Origin: Candidatus Omnitrophota bacterium
GTDB lineage: Bacteria; Omnitrophota; Gorgyraeia; 1-14-0-20-64-10
Direction: 5' to 3'
DNA length: 59,582 bases
NCBI GenBank assembly: GCA_016201735.1
Contig: JACQCH010000014.1
Span: 1-59,582 of the forward strand
The notes beneath the pieces were generated by a model, which had not been told where the DNA came from, made no database searches, and saw only the letters and a program-made list of their open reading frames with translations. Numbering within the stretch: position 1 is the stretch's first letter; each line of letters opens with the position of its first letter. Below are positions 3,701-37,469 of the stretch, in pieces. Position numbers and translations under genes: made by a program.

Positions 3701-5566
3701 ACCTTCAGTCCGTTGAAGTTCAGGGTGATTGCGGGGATTCCGCCTTCTCCCCGGCCGGTTTTCTACACCGGCGAGAAGTTTGGAGTGGGAGTGGCGGCCC
3801 TGGCCAATGACGGGATCACTGTGACGCCCAATTATCGCGGGACGGTGGCCTTTACGGCGGTGACGGGGCTTTCGCTTCCGGGGAACTACACCTTCACGGC
3901 GGCGGACGCGGGGCTGCATGACTTCACCGATAGCTATGCCTCCGCGGCGGGCAGCTACGTGGTGACGGTTTCCGATGCGGCGGCTGCGGCAGTGGGGGGA
4001 ACGACGGATCCGACCAAGCCGATCAAGGTGGTGCAGGCGAAGGTGTTGGTGTCGAATGTGGACGGGCCGGTGGGGATATTGTATATTCCGATTCGGATTG
4101 TAGACGCACTGGGGGCGGTGATTCCGGACGACACGACGACCTTCACGGCGGCGCTGACGGAGGAGAAGGCGGACAACACCGCCGTGGCCACGACACCGTC
4201 GGTGAGGTTTCACGCGGGTTATGCGGCTGTTTCAGTGAGCGATTCGGCGGCTGAGAAGGTGACGGTGAAAGGATCCACGACCCCGGTGACCTTGGAGGTG
4301 AATTTTGGGGTGGCGACGTTTGGATCCACCAGCACCACCTCGACAACCGCTTTCACGCCGAACACGCTTTACATCAGCGGGGGTTATACGGCCGGGTACA
4401 GTTATACGTTTCCGACGGGGACTACTTACACGACTCCGGCGGCGGCGGCCTACACGACAACGACCGCGGCTCCGTTGACCCAGCAGTATCCAGGGACGAC
4501 CTACGCGGCTCCGACGAGGTACGATACCGGGGTAACCAGTGGGTTGGCAGGTCTTCAGCAATATACAGGGTATATTGCTCCGAGCGGTTCTGCCGGCTAC
4601 ACCGGTTTAACCGGTGCCACCGGTTTGACCGGTACCACCGGTTTGACCGGCTACACGGCTCCGGCCGGTTCTGCTGGATTTATGGGACTGTTTTCTCCAA
4701 CAACCGGTTCGACCGGTTTAACCGGTTCCACTGGATCCGCCAGTTCTCCCAGTACGTCTTGGAGTCCGGCAGCGTTTCAGGCGGCCACGAGCGGTCTGCC
4801 GCCGAGCGTTGCGGCAAGCATGCAGTCATACTTTAGCAACGCCAACAACCCGACGGCGATGCCCAGTTTTGTGTATGCTCCGTCGAGTGGGATGCCGCAG
4901 GGATCTACGACCTCCTCTGGTGCTGGAGGAGGTTGGAGTCTGGGTCCGATGATGGGCGGCAGCAAAGGGATGACTTTTGGGCCGGTGGGGATGAGCACGG
5001 CAGGTTCGGCCGGTTCGGCGCCCAGTTTTGGGAACTTTGGGGGGTGGGGGTCCGCGTCGGCCAGCTCCGGCGGTTCGACTGGGTCGGGCGCTGGCGCGGG
5101 AAATTGGATGAGCGGGCCGGCAGGATCGACCGGTATGACCGGTCCAGCCGGTGTGACCGGTCCAGCCGGTGTGACCGGTTCGACCGGAGGGTTCACACCG
5201 GATGCGGGGTTGAACGCGCCGGGGATGCTGCCAACGTGGATGACACAAACTGGGCCAGGGGGGCAAGCGGCCGGAGTGCTTCCGCCTGGAATGGAGGGAT
5301 CTTCCGGAGCGTTCATGAACCAGATGCCCGGAGGAGATTCCATGGGGATGCCGATGGACGCGGGCGGCGGGCAGGGGTGGATGGGCGGCTTCAGCCCGCA
5401 GGGGAACTTTGGACCTGGGATGTTCGGCAACGCCGGCGGCCAGGGCCAGCAGGGCGGGGAAGGGAAGAAAGAAGAGAAACAAAAGGGAGAGCCGGACTCT
5501 TCTGGAAAGCAGAGCGCTTCCCCGGGAACCGCCTCCGACAACAGCCAGGGGAGTGTGACAAACTAA
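638..5566 (+). CDS. Giant secreted protein: beta repeats, LamG, Ig/FN3-like, collagen-like tail
   Basis: This is 1642 residues in this frame, and the GTG at 638 is only where the frame opens; the natural protein continues upstream in frame 1. Order seen: Gly/Thr-rich beta-strand repeats (1-400); a LamG/concanavalin-like domain (about 407-605, ending in the typical [12 protein letters not shown] motif); a spacer; an FN3-like segment (about 700-810, starting PAAPTNLTL); several Ig-like repeats (about 820-1240); and a Thr/Gly tail with collagen-like G-x-T/A triplets near 1320-1370 and 1495-1520. The C-terminus is charged ([10 protein letters not shown]) and then Ser-rich. No LPXTG, PEP-CTERM or autotransporter barrel is visible. 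It is probably an extracellular adhesin or sheath protein; the secretion route is not visible. It is followed directly by a response regulator. Confidence 0.85.
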
Positions 5567-33359: not shown

Positions 33360-34010
33360 TCACCGATTCGGCTTCGCCGTTTGAGTCGGCTTGGCGGTGA
33401 TGACCGATGATTTCATCAAGCTGTCGGCCGATGGAGGAGAGAAGCCGGCGTAGCCCCGGTGCCGCTCGATCAGCTCCACCACCGTGAAGGGATTACCCTC
33501 TTTCTCGTCGGCCGCCGTGAAGATCTGGCGCAGGTCCCCACCCTTGGCGCCGACGACCTCGCCAGCGAAAGGAATCCCCCGCTTCTTTAACGCGGCGACG
33601 GCTTGCTCGATTTCCTCTACCCGGACCGCGATGTGGTGGAGCACCTTGTCGGAGAACCGGTTGACCCAGGGAGAGATCACGCAGGTTTTTCCCCGCTCGC
33701 CGGCGAAGGCCTGGTCGATAAAGACCGCCGGCAGGCCGGCCTTTCGGTAAACCTTCGCCCACCAGTCGTCGTACTCCAGCACTCCCTGCTTCCCCACGGT
33801 TTTGTCCCAGGCGAAGCCGAGATCAAGGAACTCTTCTGAACGCTTCTCCACGTCCAGTGTCCGGACCGTGATGTGATCCACCAGCGGGAACAGGCCGACC
33901 CCGACCTTCCCCAGTTCCTCCTTCAGGAACCGGGCCGCCTTGTTGTTCTCAACGAACCGGTCCACGTAATTCCGGACACTCTCTTCCGCTTTATCCTTGG
34001 ATTGGGCCAT
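33360..34010 (-). CDS. VOC-superfamily protein related to 4-hydroxyphenylpyruvate dioxygenase
   Basis: 216 residues. VDHITVRTLDVEKRSEEFLDLGF opens the first beta-alpha-beta module; the second has LHHIAVRVEEIEQAVAALKKRG, then DLRQIFTAADEKEGNPFTVVELIERHRGYAGFSP. The His in DHI, His in HHI and Glu in VELIERHRG are candidate metal ligands, as in HPPD-like dioxygenases, though it is half the HPPD length. The last residues (TAKPTQTAKPNR) are encoded by a degenerate CCGG-family palindrome. A TATAAT box at about 34035 and a GAGGAG site precede the ATG. Confidence 0.8.
   Translation of the reverse strand: MAQSKDKAEESVRNYVDRFVENNKAARFLKEELGKVGVGLFPLVDHITVRTLDVEKRSEEFLDLGFAWDKTVGKQGVLEYDDWWAKVYRKAGLPAVFIDQAFAGERGKTCVISPWVNRFSDKVLHHIAVRVEEIEQAVAALKKRGIPFAGEVVGAKGGDLRQIFTAADEKEGNPFTVVELIERHRGYAGFSPPSADSLMKSSVITAKPTQTAKPNR
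33366..33400. repeat. Intragenic CCGG-family palindrome, degenerate copy G
   Basis: It encodes the C-terminal TAKPTQTAKPNR of the VOC protein, the same peptide pattern as the MetF N-terminal copy (GKPDQTGKPD) and the FIST copy (PVQTGKP). It is more diverged (about 16/21 bases shared with copy C), so it is less certain. Confidence 0.5.
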
Positions 34011-34070
34011 CGCTTGAGATTCTCCTCTTATCCATTATATCCCAAAAGTTCGCAACGAGATGAGCAGCCC

Positions 34071-34173
34071 GGGTGCATCCCAAGTTTGTCGGTCATCCTC
34101 GCGAAAGCGAGGATCTGATCCTCATTTTCATGAGGATGACATCCAACGGCACCGACGAATCTGGGATGCACCC
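34071..34173. repeat. 103-bp composite inverted repeat
   Basis: Ends GGGTGCATCCCA and TGGGATGCACCC are exact inverted repeats; the next bases TTTGTCGGT/ACCGACGAAT continue the pairing. The interior has TCCTCGCGAAAGCGAGGA and TCCTCATTTTCATGAGGA hairpins. A small open frame crosses it but is only repeat sequence. It lies in the 509-bp gap 34011-34518, whose part 34174-34316 shows nothing recognisable. Confidence 0.9.
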
Positions 34174-34316
34174 AGCAGCCCTGTATTGTATAAGCACCGT
34201 TTTCGTCGAAATTGGAGGCCATGTCAACCAAGATCACTGGGTTGCCTAAAAGCGTAAATGCGCCGAGTATCCTTTGGTTAATTAAAATAAACCTAGATAA
34301 ATAATTTCAAGAGACC

Positions 34317-34345
34317 TTGACAAATCGGGGGGGGGGGTGCTATAT
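34317..34345 (+). promoter_or_regulatory. Promoter with G10 tract in the spacer (phase-variable candidate)
   Basis: TTGACA (34317-34322), exactly 17 bp, TATATT (34340-34345). Ten of the 17 spacer bases are an uninterrupted G run (34327-34336). Gain or loss of one G by slippage would change the spacing and promoter strength, the mechanism known for Neisseria porA/opc and Bordetella fim promoters. Transcription would start near 34352, just before the riboswitch. Confidence 0.75.
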
Positions 34346-34355
34346 TTCTATTAGT

Positions 34356-34432
34356 ACTCGATAAAGGCAAACCCGCCGCAAGACGGGGGCGCAAAGCAAC
34401 GGGTCCTTTAGACGGATCGCCGAGCTGCCGAG
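34356..34432 (+). promoter_or_regulatory. c-di-GMP-I (GEMM-I) riboswitch aptamer
   Basis: Conserved GEMM-I elements in order: CTCGATAAAGGCAAACC (P1 5' side and GGCAAACC at 34365-34372), a P2 hairpin with CCCG..CGGG arms, GCGCAAAGC (34390-34397), the CGGGTCC..GGATCGCCG P3 stem, and TGCCGAG closing P1. The G before CAAACC is kept, which fits c-di-GMP better than the cGAMP variant, but the GEMM-Ib and other I-type variants cannot be excluded by eye. Confidence 0.85.
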
Positions 34433-34479
34433 GGAAAATGAAAAACCAGTAGGCCTTGGAAGCTCGGCGATTTTATTTT
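34416..34479 (+). terminator. Riboswitch expression platform (rho-independent terminator)
   Basis: ATCGCCGAGCT (34416-34426) pairs perfectly with AGCTCGGCGAT (34461-34471), followed by TTTTATTTT. The 5' arm overlaps the P3/P1 strand of the aptamer, so ligand binding should prevent the terminator and switch the gene on (inference). Confidence 0.8.
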
Positions 34480-34518
34480 CGCCAGTTTCTAGGGTCTTAG
34501 CGTTAAGGAGAATTTAGA

Positions 34519-35001
34519 ATGCTGAAGCGAATCGTGGTGTCGATGATGGTTATTGGAATGGGAAGCGGTTGGCTCCCGGCGGGAGCGTACGCGGCTGATG
34601 CTGATCCGGTAGAGTCCGTTAAAACAGTGGAGAGCGCCGCCGAGTCTCTACAGCAAGCTCAGCAACCCAGCCCCGCCGACGCGTGGGTGGCGTTTCAGAT
34701 CCAGGTCGATGAATGTATCAAAAAAGTTCCCATGGAAGACAAGAAGGATGCAAAACAGCCGGAAGTTACAATTACAAAAGGGCCCGATGGGAAAAAACTT
34801 ATAGAGACCACAAAATTCCCGGGTGGTAATACAGTCGTTATTATGTTCGGTCCGGATGGCAAGCCGTTAGGTGGGGTTGTTTATGATAAAAATGGGAAGC
34901 CCTTGGCCACCATCCGGGAACTTCCGGACGGTACAAAAATTATTACTCCGTACGACAAAGACGGAAAGCCGAAGGAACCGATAACAATAAAACCTAAGTA
35001 A
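34519..35001 (+). CDS. Small exported protein with DGK-type repeats, c-di-GMP controlled
   Basis: 160 residues. Signal peptide MLKRIVVSMMVIGMGSGWLP..AYA, cleaved near residue 28. The mature part has a Ser/Gln-rich stretch, one cysteine, then repeats of the type GPDGKKLIETT, GPDGKPLGGVVYD, DKNGKPLATIRE, DKDGKPKEP, resembling short beta-hairpin (MORN/YwqK-like) repeats. Ribosome site AAGGAG, 8 bp before the ATG. No known family. Control by a c-di-GMP-I riboswitch suggests a matrix or surface role; its own function is unknown. Confidence 0.8.
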   Translation: MLKRIVVSMMVIGMGSGWLPAGAYAADADPVESVKTVESAAESLQQAQQPSPADAWVAFQIQVDECIKKVPMEDKKDAKQPEVTITKGPDGKKLIETTKFPGGNTVVIMFGPDGKPLGGVVYDKNGKPLATIRELPDGTKIITPYDKDGKPKEPITIKPK

Positions 35002-35035: not shown

Positions 35036-36190
35036 CTAAAGCCCAAGGTTTCGAAGCAGAAGCTGCCAGGGAAGGACCTCGACCTTCTCCACAACTTTCC
35101 GCGCGGTCCCAAGGTAAGCGATCACGGGTCGATGCGGCTTCGAGTAATACTCGCTGAAACTCCGAAGGCCCCTTAAGTCGGATCTCCCTATGTGGGTCGA
35201 CGCCTTGGCCTCGACGGCGACCACCTCTTTGCCTAACTCAACGATGAAGTCCACTTCCGCGCCGTGTGTCGTCCGGTAAGAAGAGATTCGGACCTCTTTA
35301 TCTTTGGCGGCTGCGCCATGGATGATCTGATTAAAGAGGAGATGCTCAAAGAGAGTTCCGATCCTGTCCTGCGAGACGATAAAGTTTCCCATCAGACCGT
35401 TCAAGACGCCCGTGTCGAAGAAGAAATAACGGGGGCTCTGAATGAGCCGCTTTCGCTGGGATTTCCGGAAGGCATCGCAGCGCTTCAGGATCAACGTGTC
35501 TTCCAGGATTTCGAAGTATCGGAGGGCCGACTGACGCGGGATTCCGGCGTCCGAGCCGAGCTTCGAGAGATCGAGGAATTTTCCCGCCTCCGCGGCGACC
35601 ACGAAAAGAAACCGAGAGAATCCCTCTAAATTTCTCGTCAGTGCCTCCGCTTGGATTTCTTCCTTGAGATAGGTGGCCGCGTAGGAACGCAAAGTTTTAG
35701 TCCTTTCCGCTTCATCGGTTTCCGTCCAGATGCCCGGCAGCGTTCCTGTGGAGAGAGCCTGTTTGGTGTTGAGCCCGTAGTTGAGCTCCGCGCAGGTCAG
35801 CGGCCCCAGGAAATAGGTATGGATTCTTCCCGGCAGAAGGTTGGCCTTGCCCCGCTTTAATTTTCTTGCGCTGGAGCCGGTGAGATAGAATTTGGGCGGG
35901 CGCGGCGTATCGTCGAGAATGGCCTGAAGGGTGTTCAAGAGTGTGGGAAGTCGCTGTACTTCGTCAATGAAAACCGTCTTGTACGGTTTGGCCGCCAGGC
36001 GCTGGGTGAGTTCCTCTGGGTTTCGAGCAAACTCCAGATAGGTGGATTCCAGAGCCAAGTTAATGCTGAGTTCCGGAGAGAGGCGGTGGATCAGGGTAGA
36101 TTTTCCAGTCTGCCGGGGCCCCAACAGGAGAACACCCTTTTTCGATTTTTGCAGAATCGGCTCTAAACCCCTCTTGATAAAATGTATCAT
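35036..36190 (-). CDS. AAA-family ATPase with C-terminal DUF4143 (copy 2)
   Basis: 384 residues. Walker A GPRQTGKSTLI (about 25-35), Walker B VFIDEVQRLP, LTGSSARKLKRGKANLLPGR, helical linker, and C-terminal THGAEVDFIVELGKEVVAVEAK with nuclease-like acidic/lysine spacing. A paralogue of the genes at 13451 and 36315. It has its own near-consensus promoter (36199-36228) and is predicted leaderless. Role unknown. Confidence 0.92.
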   Translation of the reverse strand: MIHFIKRGLEPILQKSKKGVLLLGPRQTGKSTLIHRLSPELSINLALESTYLEFARNPEELTQRLAAKPYKTVFIDEVQRLPTLLNTLQAILDDTPRPPKFYLTGSSARKLKRGKANLLPGRIHTYFLGPLTCAELNYGLNTKQALSTGTLPGIWTETDEAERTKTLRSYAATYLKEEIQAEALTRNLEGFSRFLFVVAAEAGKFLDLSKLGSDAGIPRQSALRYFEILEDTLILKRCDAFRKSQRKRLIQSPRYFFFDTGVLNGLMGNFIVSQDRIGTLFEHLLFNQIIHGAAAKDKEVRISSYRTTHGAEVDFIVELGKEVVAVEAKASTHIGRSDLRGLRSFSEYYSKPHRPVIAYLGTARKVVEKVEVLPWQLLLRNLGL

Positions 36191-36237: not shown

Positions 36238-36315
36238 TTAAGCGAGGCGGAGGTTGGAGAGGATCGCCTCGGTGGAATGAGAACGGTTGAGGCAGTAGAA
36301 ATGGAGGCCGGGCAC
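36238..36315 (-). pseudogene. Remnant of a second metF 3' end
   Basis: The minus strand reads VPGLHFYCLNRSHSTEAILS and five more residues, then TAA. This is a diverged copy of the intact MetF C-terminus (VPGLHFYCLNRSVSAEKVLK...) at 37523. It abuts the TAG of ATPase 3 (36315-36317) in another frame and has no start, so it is a 25-codon gene fragment. Confidence 0.85.
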
Positions 36316-37469
36316 TAAATAAGGGAGGGAAGTCGTCTTAGGTAAGTTTGCCACGGGAGGATCCTGACATCCCCGATGTCATAGGGATGTGAGGCCGTGC
36401 AGACCAGGAAGCAGGGAATTCTTGAGTGCTCTTCCTTGAACGCCCGAATCCCCGAAAGATCGGCACCACCGATGTAAGCGATCGACTTGAATTCGAAGGC
36501 AGCCAAGATCTCCCCATGCTTCTCAATGAGAAGATCAACTTCAGCGCCGTGATTTGTCCTCCAAAAATAGAGATTGGCCTCGCTCCTTTTGTAATGAATC
36601 AGCCGGTCCGCTTCGAGGACGAGGAGCTGCTCAAAGAGTTTGCCCCGCGTGATCCGATCAAGAGGGGCCGTCAGCCGTTTATTCACGGCATTCGTCACGC
36701 CCAGGTCAAAGAAGTAGAATTTCGGATGCCCCGCAAGGCGTTTTCGCAGGCTTTTCCGCCAGGGAAGAAGCTGTAAGCCGATCAGGGTGTCTTCCAGGAT
36801 TTCGTAATAGGATTGGACGGTTCGGACAGGCAACTGGCACTCACGGGCCGTGGAAGAAAAACTCACCGGTTCTGCGAACTGACTGGCTGCGATGTCGAGG
36901 AATCGGGAAAACCCTCCCAGGTTGCGGACAATCCCCTCGGCTTGGATCTCTTCGCGCAAATAGGTGTGGACGTAGGTTGTCAGAAAATCGATGCGGTCTT
37001 TTTGTTCTCTTCCAATGACAGGGGGAAGAGTTCCGAAAAGGAGGGCATCTTCCAGATCAAATTGTTTCTCGATCTCCCCGTAGACGAAAGGAAACAGGTG
37101 CCGTTCTACGGCCCGTCCTCCCAAGAGGTTCGCTCCTCCCCGTCGGAGTTTCCGGGCGCTCGAGCCGGTCAGGATAAACTGGCAACCCGGATCCCTCATC
37201 AGGGCCTGAACCTCGTTCAGCAGGAGGGGAACGCGTTGAATTTCGTCTATGAATAGGGTGTGGATTCCCTCTCGAATTTTCGTCTCAGCCTCCTTCCTGA
37301 AGAGGGAAGGATCCTTCGAGTACTTCAGAAAAAGGTCGCTGAGCAGGAGATCCACTTTCCAGATGGATTCCGTGTAGCGGGTCTCGATCAGCGTGCTTTT
37401 TCCAGTCTGCCGTGGCCCGAAGAGAAAGAAGGACTCTCTTTTTGGGAGGTCGATGATTCTATTTATCAT
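36315..37469 (-). CDS. AAA-family ATPase with C-terminal DUF4143 (copy 3)
   Basis: 384 residues. Walker A GPRQTGKSTLI, Walker B LFIDEIQRVP, LTGSSARKLRRGGANLLGGR, C-terminal NHGAEVDLLIEKHGEILAAFEFK. It ends exactly against a metF fragment, and the intact metF begins 54 bp upstream of its start, so it sits between two metF 3' ends. Strong own promoter (37478-37506), predicted leaderless. It looks like a cassette that moved into a metF-containing region (inference). Confidence 0.92.
   Translation of the reverse strand: MINRIIDLPKRESFFLFGPRQTGKSTLIETRYTESIWKVDLLLSDLFLKYSKDPSLFRKEAETKIREGIHTLFIDEIQRVPLLLNEVQALMRDPGCQFILTGSSARKLRRGGANLLGGRAVERHLFPFVYGEIEKQFDLEDALLFGTLPPVIGREQKDRIDFLTTYVHTYLREEIQAEGIVRNLGGFSRFLDIAASQFAEPVSFSSTARECQLPVRTVQSYYEILEDTLIGLQLLPWRKSLRKRLAGHPKFYFFDLGVTNAVNKRLTAPLDRITRGKLFEQLLVLEADRLIHYKRSEANLYFWRTNHGAEVDLLIEKHGEILAAFEFKSIAYIGGADLSGIRAFKEEHSRIPCFLVCTASHPYDIGDVRILPWQTYLRRLPSLI

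Follow-up and report, generated by a model that had tools for sequence, protein, structure and literature searches.

A G-tract promoter ahead of a GEMM-I riboswitch: a candidate two-gate leader for an exported protein in Candidatus Omnitrophota

The window analyzed here is a stretch of 59,582 nucleotides from a Candidatus Omnitrophota bacterium whose assembly comprises 1.81 Mb in 67 contigs and is 95% complete. The closest relatives of the MTHFR gene in the window share 73-75% identity with it, and all are Candidatus Omnitrophota. Positions 34317 to 35001 hold, in order, a promoter with a long G tract in its spacer, a GEMM-I (c-di-GMP-I) aptamer, an intrinsic terminator overlapping the aptamer, and the gene of a small exported protein (Table 1). 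Elsewhere in the window, positions 4593-5187 consist of nine-base tandem repeats, apparently collagen-like Gly-X-Thr codons.

Table 1. Features of the promoter, leader and gene, in positions of the window
Feature	Position	Strand	Basis or remark
-35 element TTGACA	34317-34322	+	exact consensus
G11 homopolymer tract within promoter spacer, candidate slippage site	34327-34337	+	sequence
Extended -10, TGC-TATATT	34338-34346	+	hexamer 34341-34346; 18 bp from -35
Approximate expected transcription start	34353	+	about 7 nt past -10; inferred from promoter geometry
GEMM-I (c-di-GMP-I) aptamer	34357-34433	+	RF03167, 76.2 bits, E 2.5e-16
Intrinsic terminator	34414-34479	+	stem 34414-34473; 5' arm 34414-34433 within aptamer; U-rich tail to 34479
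Ribosome-binding site AAGGAG	34505-34510	+	8 nt ahead of ATG; sequence
Open reading frame of 160-aa exported protein	34519-35001	+	signal-peptide-like N-terminus, SLQQAQQP linker, C-terminal beta-strand repeats (about residues 80-157)

An earlier sequence-only reading of this DNA had described a 160-residue exported protein with DGK-type repeats, and the open reading frame with its signal-peptide-like start bears this description out. In the single-sequence AlphaFold2 model of the protein, confidence is low over the N-terminal half; the model further shows one helix and about seven short strands between residues 82 and 157 that form a repeated single-sheet design, with block pLDDT values of 74-85 across the C-terminal half. 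No Pfam family was found for the protein, and in NCBIfam the sole match, to a surface-protein repeat, stayed below threshold. A structure search gave a weak resemblance to OspA's single-layer sheet (E 0.004, TM-scores 0.2-0.3) that is unusable as homology. Apart from the outcome of a query with the first 57 residues, described below, no relatives were found in the contigs of its own genome or in 58 other genomes. We consider the protein to be probably exported and surface-exposed. Two adjacent AAA_14/DUF4143 ATPase genes lie downstream of it on the minus strand (35036-36190 and 36315-37469).

The riboswitch is the firmer of the two regulatory layers. A GEMM-I aptamer had been read at 34356-34432, and the RF01051 covariance-model search proposed as its check recovered the same interval with 60.8 bits, the cut-off being 35. 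The best Rfam family, missed by that reading, is not the parent RF01051 but c-di-GMP-I-GGC (RF03167), whose score compares with a gathering cut-off of 59 bits. When aligned to Vc2 numbering, the aptamer AAAGGCAAACC carries G at the residue aligned with Vc2 G20 and A at the position of A47. The consensus of RF03167 has G (GCGAAgC) where ordinary GEMM-I has A47 (GCAAAGC), a G that, going by the model consensus alone, would be the residue defining the GGC family; nearly all GEMM-I elements of this genome have A there, as does the studied aptamer. GEMM-I RNA with a G20A change is the form that was studied in complex with cGAMP (PMC6274999). Given that position 20 is G, c-di-GMP is the expected ligand, and a cGAMP-type aptamer is not favored. 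Because the best model is GGC and yet its G position is A here, we grade the predicted ligand as probably, rather than certainly, c-di-GMP.

The overlap between the aptamer and the 5' arm of the terminator, likewise noted before, is also confirmed: the 3' strand of the aptamer serves as the 5' arm of a stem of -34.1 kcal/mol (z -5.71), with an inverted repeat at 34416-34433/34454-34471. This is the anatomy of a transcriptional ON-switch. The strand that the terminator requires also closes the aptamer, so a bound ligand should favor readthrough and the gene should be ON. The design resembles that of the experimentally studied GEMM-I ON-switch of Geobacter pilM, in which the terminator takes the aptamer's 3' strand so that the two structures are mutually exclusive (PMC9262584); unlike the aptamer studied here, with G at the G20 position as expected for c-di-GMP, pilM senses cGAMP. 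In a comparison set of 55 GEMM-I loci, drawn from nine genomes within the family, 47 have a candidate terminator of the same kind by a lenient scan (-12 kcal/mol) that 14 of the 55 shuffled-downstream controls pass too. That the aptamer is an ordinary GEMM-I member with an ON design is well supported; sequence and model scores support both aptamer and terminator, and we infer the ON direction and the ligand from anatomy.

The genome as a whole agrees with the riboswitch layer of the earlier reading, which is well supported by the covariance score, the terminator design and the genomic complement of c-di-GMP elements. With the studied aptamer included, there are 14 GEMM-I matches, 13 of them over the RF01051 cut-off, and eight GGDEF matches, all over cut-off, one of which has a stretch interrupted by an in-frame stop; c-di-GMP signaling is therefore amply represented. 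Among the genes that follow the other GEMM-I elements are one for a TPS-domain (filamentous-haemagglutinin-type) protein and one for a TadE-like protein, as would fit control of surface functions. The regulation of the exported-protein gene suggests that its product may act in the high-c-di-GMP (attached) state.

The promoter reads TTGACA AATC GGGGGGGGGGG TGC TATATT from 34317 to 34346. Both hexamers had been recognized correctly in the sequence-only reading; its ten Gs and 17-bp spacer do not hold, the sequence having 11 Gs and 18 bp, and it had overlooked the extended -10, TGC ahead of TATATT. The G run lies between the -35 and -10 elements at a workable spacing (TTGACA-18-TATATT with G11), and the 59.6-kb window has a single match to TTGACA-N16-19-TATAWT, where 100 shuffles of it yielded none. 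Ten nucleotides separate the -10 from the aptamer, comparable to the 11-12 nt at three other GEMM-I loci (L009, L014 and L049). Both the promoter and the RNA go beyond chance. A run of 11 Gs somewhere in the genome is not improbable by itself; what is unusual is where exactly this one lies and that a related gene bears G11 as well. In the porA and opc promoters of Neisseria and the fim promoters of Bordetella, a G or C run between -35 and -10 sets the spacing, and tract variation at promoters of this type is experimentally established. The promoter studied here shares the run in its spacer with these systems and differs from them in two respects: theirs have no riboswitch in series, and variation is established there, whereas here the tract is a candidate.

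Taken together, these features can be read as a two-gate leader, a G-tract promoter followed by a GEMM-I ON-switch, for a small exported and probably surface-associated protein, a reading to which we give slightly better than an even chance. The first gate would be a sigma-70-type promoter with its -35/-10 spacing set by G11 (18 bp as assembled), and replication slippage that gained or lost Gs would shift promoter strength from cell to cell. The extended -10 may buffer changes in spacing, so that this gate could be graded instead of on/off. The second gate would be the GEMM-I riboswitch just past the expected start. When no ligand is bound, the 3' strand of the aptamer would pair into the terminator; with c-di-GMP, the aptamer would retain that strand, RNA polymerase would read through, and the gene would be ON. 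Phase variation at the G11 promoter is plausible and better supported than in the earlier note, with chances that we put at about even.

The main alternative is an ordinary GEMM-I ON-switch behind a fixed promoter, in which the G11 tract is neutral, lengthened by slippage and unused, and c-di-GMP is the sole control. The 13 other GEMM-I elements of the genome manage without such a tract, and the tract occurs in no relative. A search of 384 genomes of the class for a run of at least eight Gs followed within 30 bases by GGCAAACC matched the studied locus alone and none of the 383 other genomes, a lack of conservation that counts against the two-gate leader. We thus rejected the idea that G-tract riboswitch promoters are conserved across the class. 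A search for G8 or longer between TTGAC and TAT gave 13 matches in 246 genomes against five with a reversed control, most of the 13 at gene starts or within genes; the exceptions are three promoters of pilin-like genes, all from a single genome. In these three paralogous type-IV-pilin-like genes of an Omnitrophota genome (L124, L125 and L126 in G214), one promoter-like sequence, TTGACAATCCCTAGGGGGGGGTAAACTAT, recurs unchanged, and past its -35 comes a G8 run. No further copies of the studied promoter were found in viral contigs.

The frequency of long G runs bears on the same alternative from both sides. The whole genome has five runs of at least nine Gs, of lengths 12, 11, 11, 9 and 9. Three runs of at least 11 Gs are seen, where the decay shown by 7- and 8-G runs predicts about 0.28 (Poisson P about 0.003); this decay, about 0.2 per added base, was estimated from 100 of 230 positions. 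Lower-order Markov models expect 0.5-13 runs of at least 11 Gs; by such models a genome may well hold one or several G11 tracts, which favors a fixed promoter with an idle tract. The same models overpredict runs of nine (11-114 expected versus five seen), so the decay-based expectation is the fairer one, and the excess of runs of at least 11 Gs over it, a modest statistical signal, speaks against an idle tract. Of 38 other Omnitrophota genomes, 12 also have runs of at least ten Gs, with G10-G13 tracts at many unrelated positions, in keeping with neutral lengthening. Two G10 runs elsewhere in Omnitrophota, one directly ahead of the ATG start codon of a lipoprotein-like gene (L097) and one where two open frames join (L101), are candidate further slippage loci. 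A response-regulator receiver gene that immediately precedes a gas-vesicle (GvpA-like) gene has a G12 run (L023, C11:3213-3224) at its extreme 3' end, where a change in length would alter the last residues only.

A stronger signal than the excess of runs is where the other G11 tract of the genome lies. A genome search with the first 57 residues of the exported protein returned exactly one other gene, on contig C12 (E 0.04, 48% identity over 31 residues), and the second G11 (L027, C12:27513-27523, minus strand) sits inside the signal-peptide codons of that gene, which likewise encodes an exported protein. The local alignment score of the two proteins is 75, as compared with a mean of 32.8 and a maximum of 65 in 500 shuffles, and their N-termini have in common the stretch VE.A..SLQQAQQP..A; the relatedness extends over about 60 N-terminal residues and was sought after the C12 tract had been noticed. 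As at the studied locus, a gene for an AAA-type ATPase lies downstream. The exported protein encoded at L009 was considered as a third member, and its similarity is not significant. As assembled with G11, the start of the C12 gene (MKMKKVMGWMMIGNMVGLSL...) and its long body (LTEAAVAPT...RSIYRP) are in different frames. Given that the tract falls within the signal-peptide codons and leaves start and body out of frame, its length would decide whether the protein is made, and the C12 gene is a candidate locus for translational phase variation; it could also merely be decaying or mis-assembled. Two related exported proteins, each with G11 at a classic position for phase variation, are hard to attribute to chance, although their relationship was sought post hoc. 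The signal-peptide tract of the C12 gene makes it seem that the genome controls such proteins by tract length in two ways: the two may be under tract-length control, one via its promoter and the other via its reading frame. A fixed promoter with an unused tract leaves this coincidence, along with the placement of the tract exactly between -35 and -10, to chance, and we regard that explanation as quite possible though not probable.

A further alternative, which we judge improbable, is that a fixed tract length tunes the promoter, with the 18-bp G-rich spacer setting basal transcription for the riboswitch. Among the 55 family loci, 18 have a promoter score of at least 9.5, with the studied promoter among the best; of the 19 promoters scoring at least 9, 11 have a spacing of 18 bp, seven of 17 bp and one of 19 bp, so that the spacing seen here is the commonest among strong GEMM-I promoters of the family. 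Another GEMM-I leader of the same genome (L013, C25:6193-6271), ahead of a TPS-domain (filamentous-haemagglutinin-type) secreted protein, has a G6 run in the spacer of its TTGACA-17-TAGACT promoter, which also fits tuning by G-rich spacers. Against tuning, a run of 11 Gs is a poor means to fix a spacing, and spacers of equal length elsewhere have no long runs: in the other family loci the longest G run in the spacer is 1-4, save L013 and a weak candidate, L059 (G6 in each), and none of them has more than six consecutive Gs. Still less probable is that assembly or sequencing errors account in part for the two G11 runs, here and on C12, and that the true lengths are shorter: the 67-contig assembly is a draft in which the length of G11 may be miscalled, homopolymers are the commonest site of length errors, and several G10 or longer runs in a relative (G010) are located at contig ends, but both tracts are contig-internal (that on C12 about 200 bp from the end) with unique flanks running into sensible genes, and the promoter hexamers stand at a workable distance.

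The two-gate leader has its nearest conceptual precedents in Clostridioides difficile. The flgB leader combines a class-I c-di-GMP riboswitch (Cd1), which is OFF with ligand, with a downstream invertible flagellar switch (PMC5386303). The locus studied here likewise has a class-I c-di-GMP riboswitch in series with a phase-variable element, here a candidate one, and flgB too controls a surface structure; it differs in that flgB uses recombinase-driven inversion downstream of an OFF riboswitch, whereas here a candidate promoter G tract lies upstream of an ON-type riboswitch. At cmrRST, a class-II c-di-GMP riboswitch that is ON with ligand is combined with an invertible cmr switch and promoter (PMC8844915). 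Riboswitch activation by c-di-GMP is there joined to a phase-variable promoter region, as it may be here; unlike the studied locus, cmrRST relies on inversion rather than tract length, has a class-II aptamer, and carries its switch, with its own promoter, downstream of the riboswitch. Phase variation by an invertible element of the C. difficile type was rejected for the studied locus, as no inverted repeats flank the promoter and leader: within 33900-34520, inverted repeats were found just in the terminator and in a palindromic element at 34071-34173. The latter is compact, its terminal inverted repeats being 23 nt long, and has an inner hairpin (GTCATCCTCGCGAAAGCGAGGATC). It resembles a small mobile element or one of REP type, and a hairpin like it comes after another riboswitch (L012). 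The earlier claim that the combination of promoter and riboswitch is undescribed therefore holds for homopolymer-tract promoters and not for the concept, which flgB and cmrRST embody via DNA inversion (PMC5386303; PMC8844915). In the literature searched, which covered few subscription journals, neither a homopolymer-tract promoter coupled to a riboswitch nor a paper pairing Omnitrophota with phase variation was found. What is new is the repeat-tract version of two-layer c-di-GMP control; the two-layer idea was already known.

More broadly, the two loci raise the tentative proposal, which we rate a little short of even, that in this Omnitrophota bacterium poly-G slippage gates the expression of related exported proteins stochastically, through promoter spacing ahead of a c-di-GMP ON-riboswitch in one case and through the reading frame of the signal peptide in the other. 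If this proposal is true, the studied leader would to our knowledge be the first repeat-tract phase variation directly in series with a riboswitch, and the two genes would be the first contingency loci that we know of in Omnitrophota. The pairing of a random gate with a c-di-GMP gate, documented in C. difficile via inversion, would then have arisen in another phylum with different hardware, namely repeat slippage upstream and antitermination downstream. Bet-hedging by surface proteins in an uncultured phylum would also become testable from metagenome reads, since tract lengths can be counted in public data.
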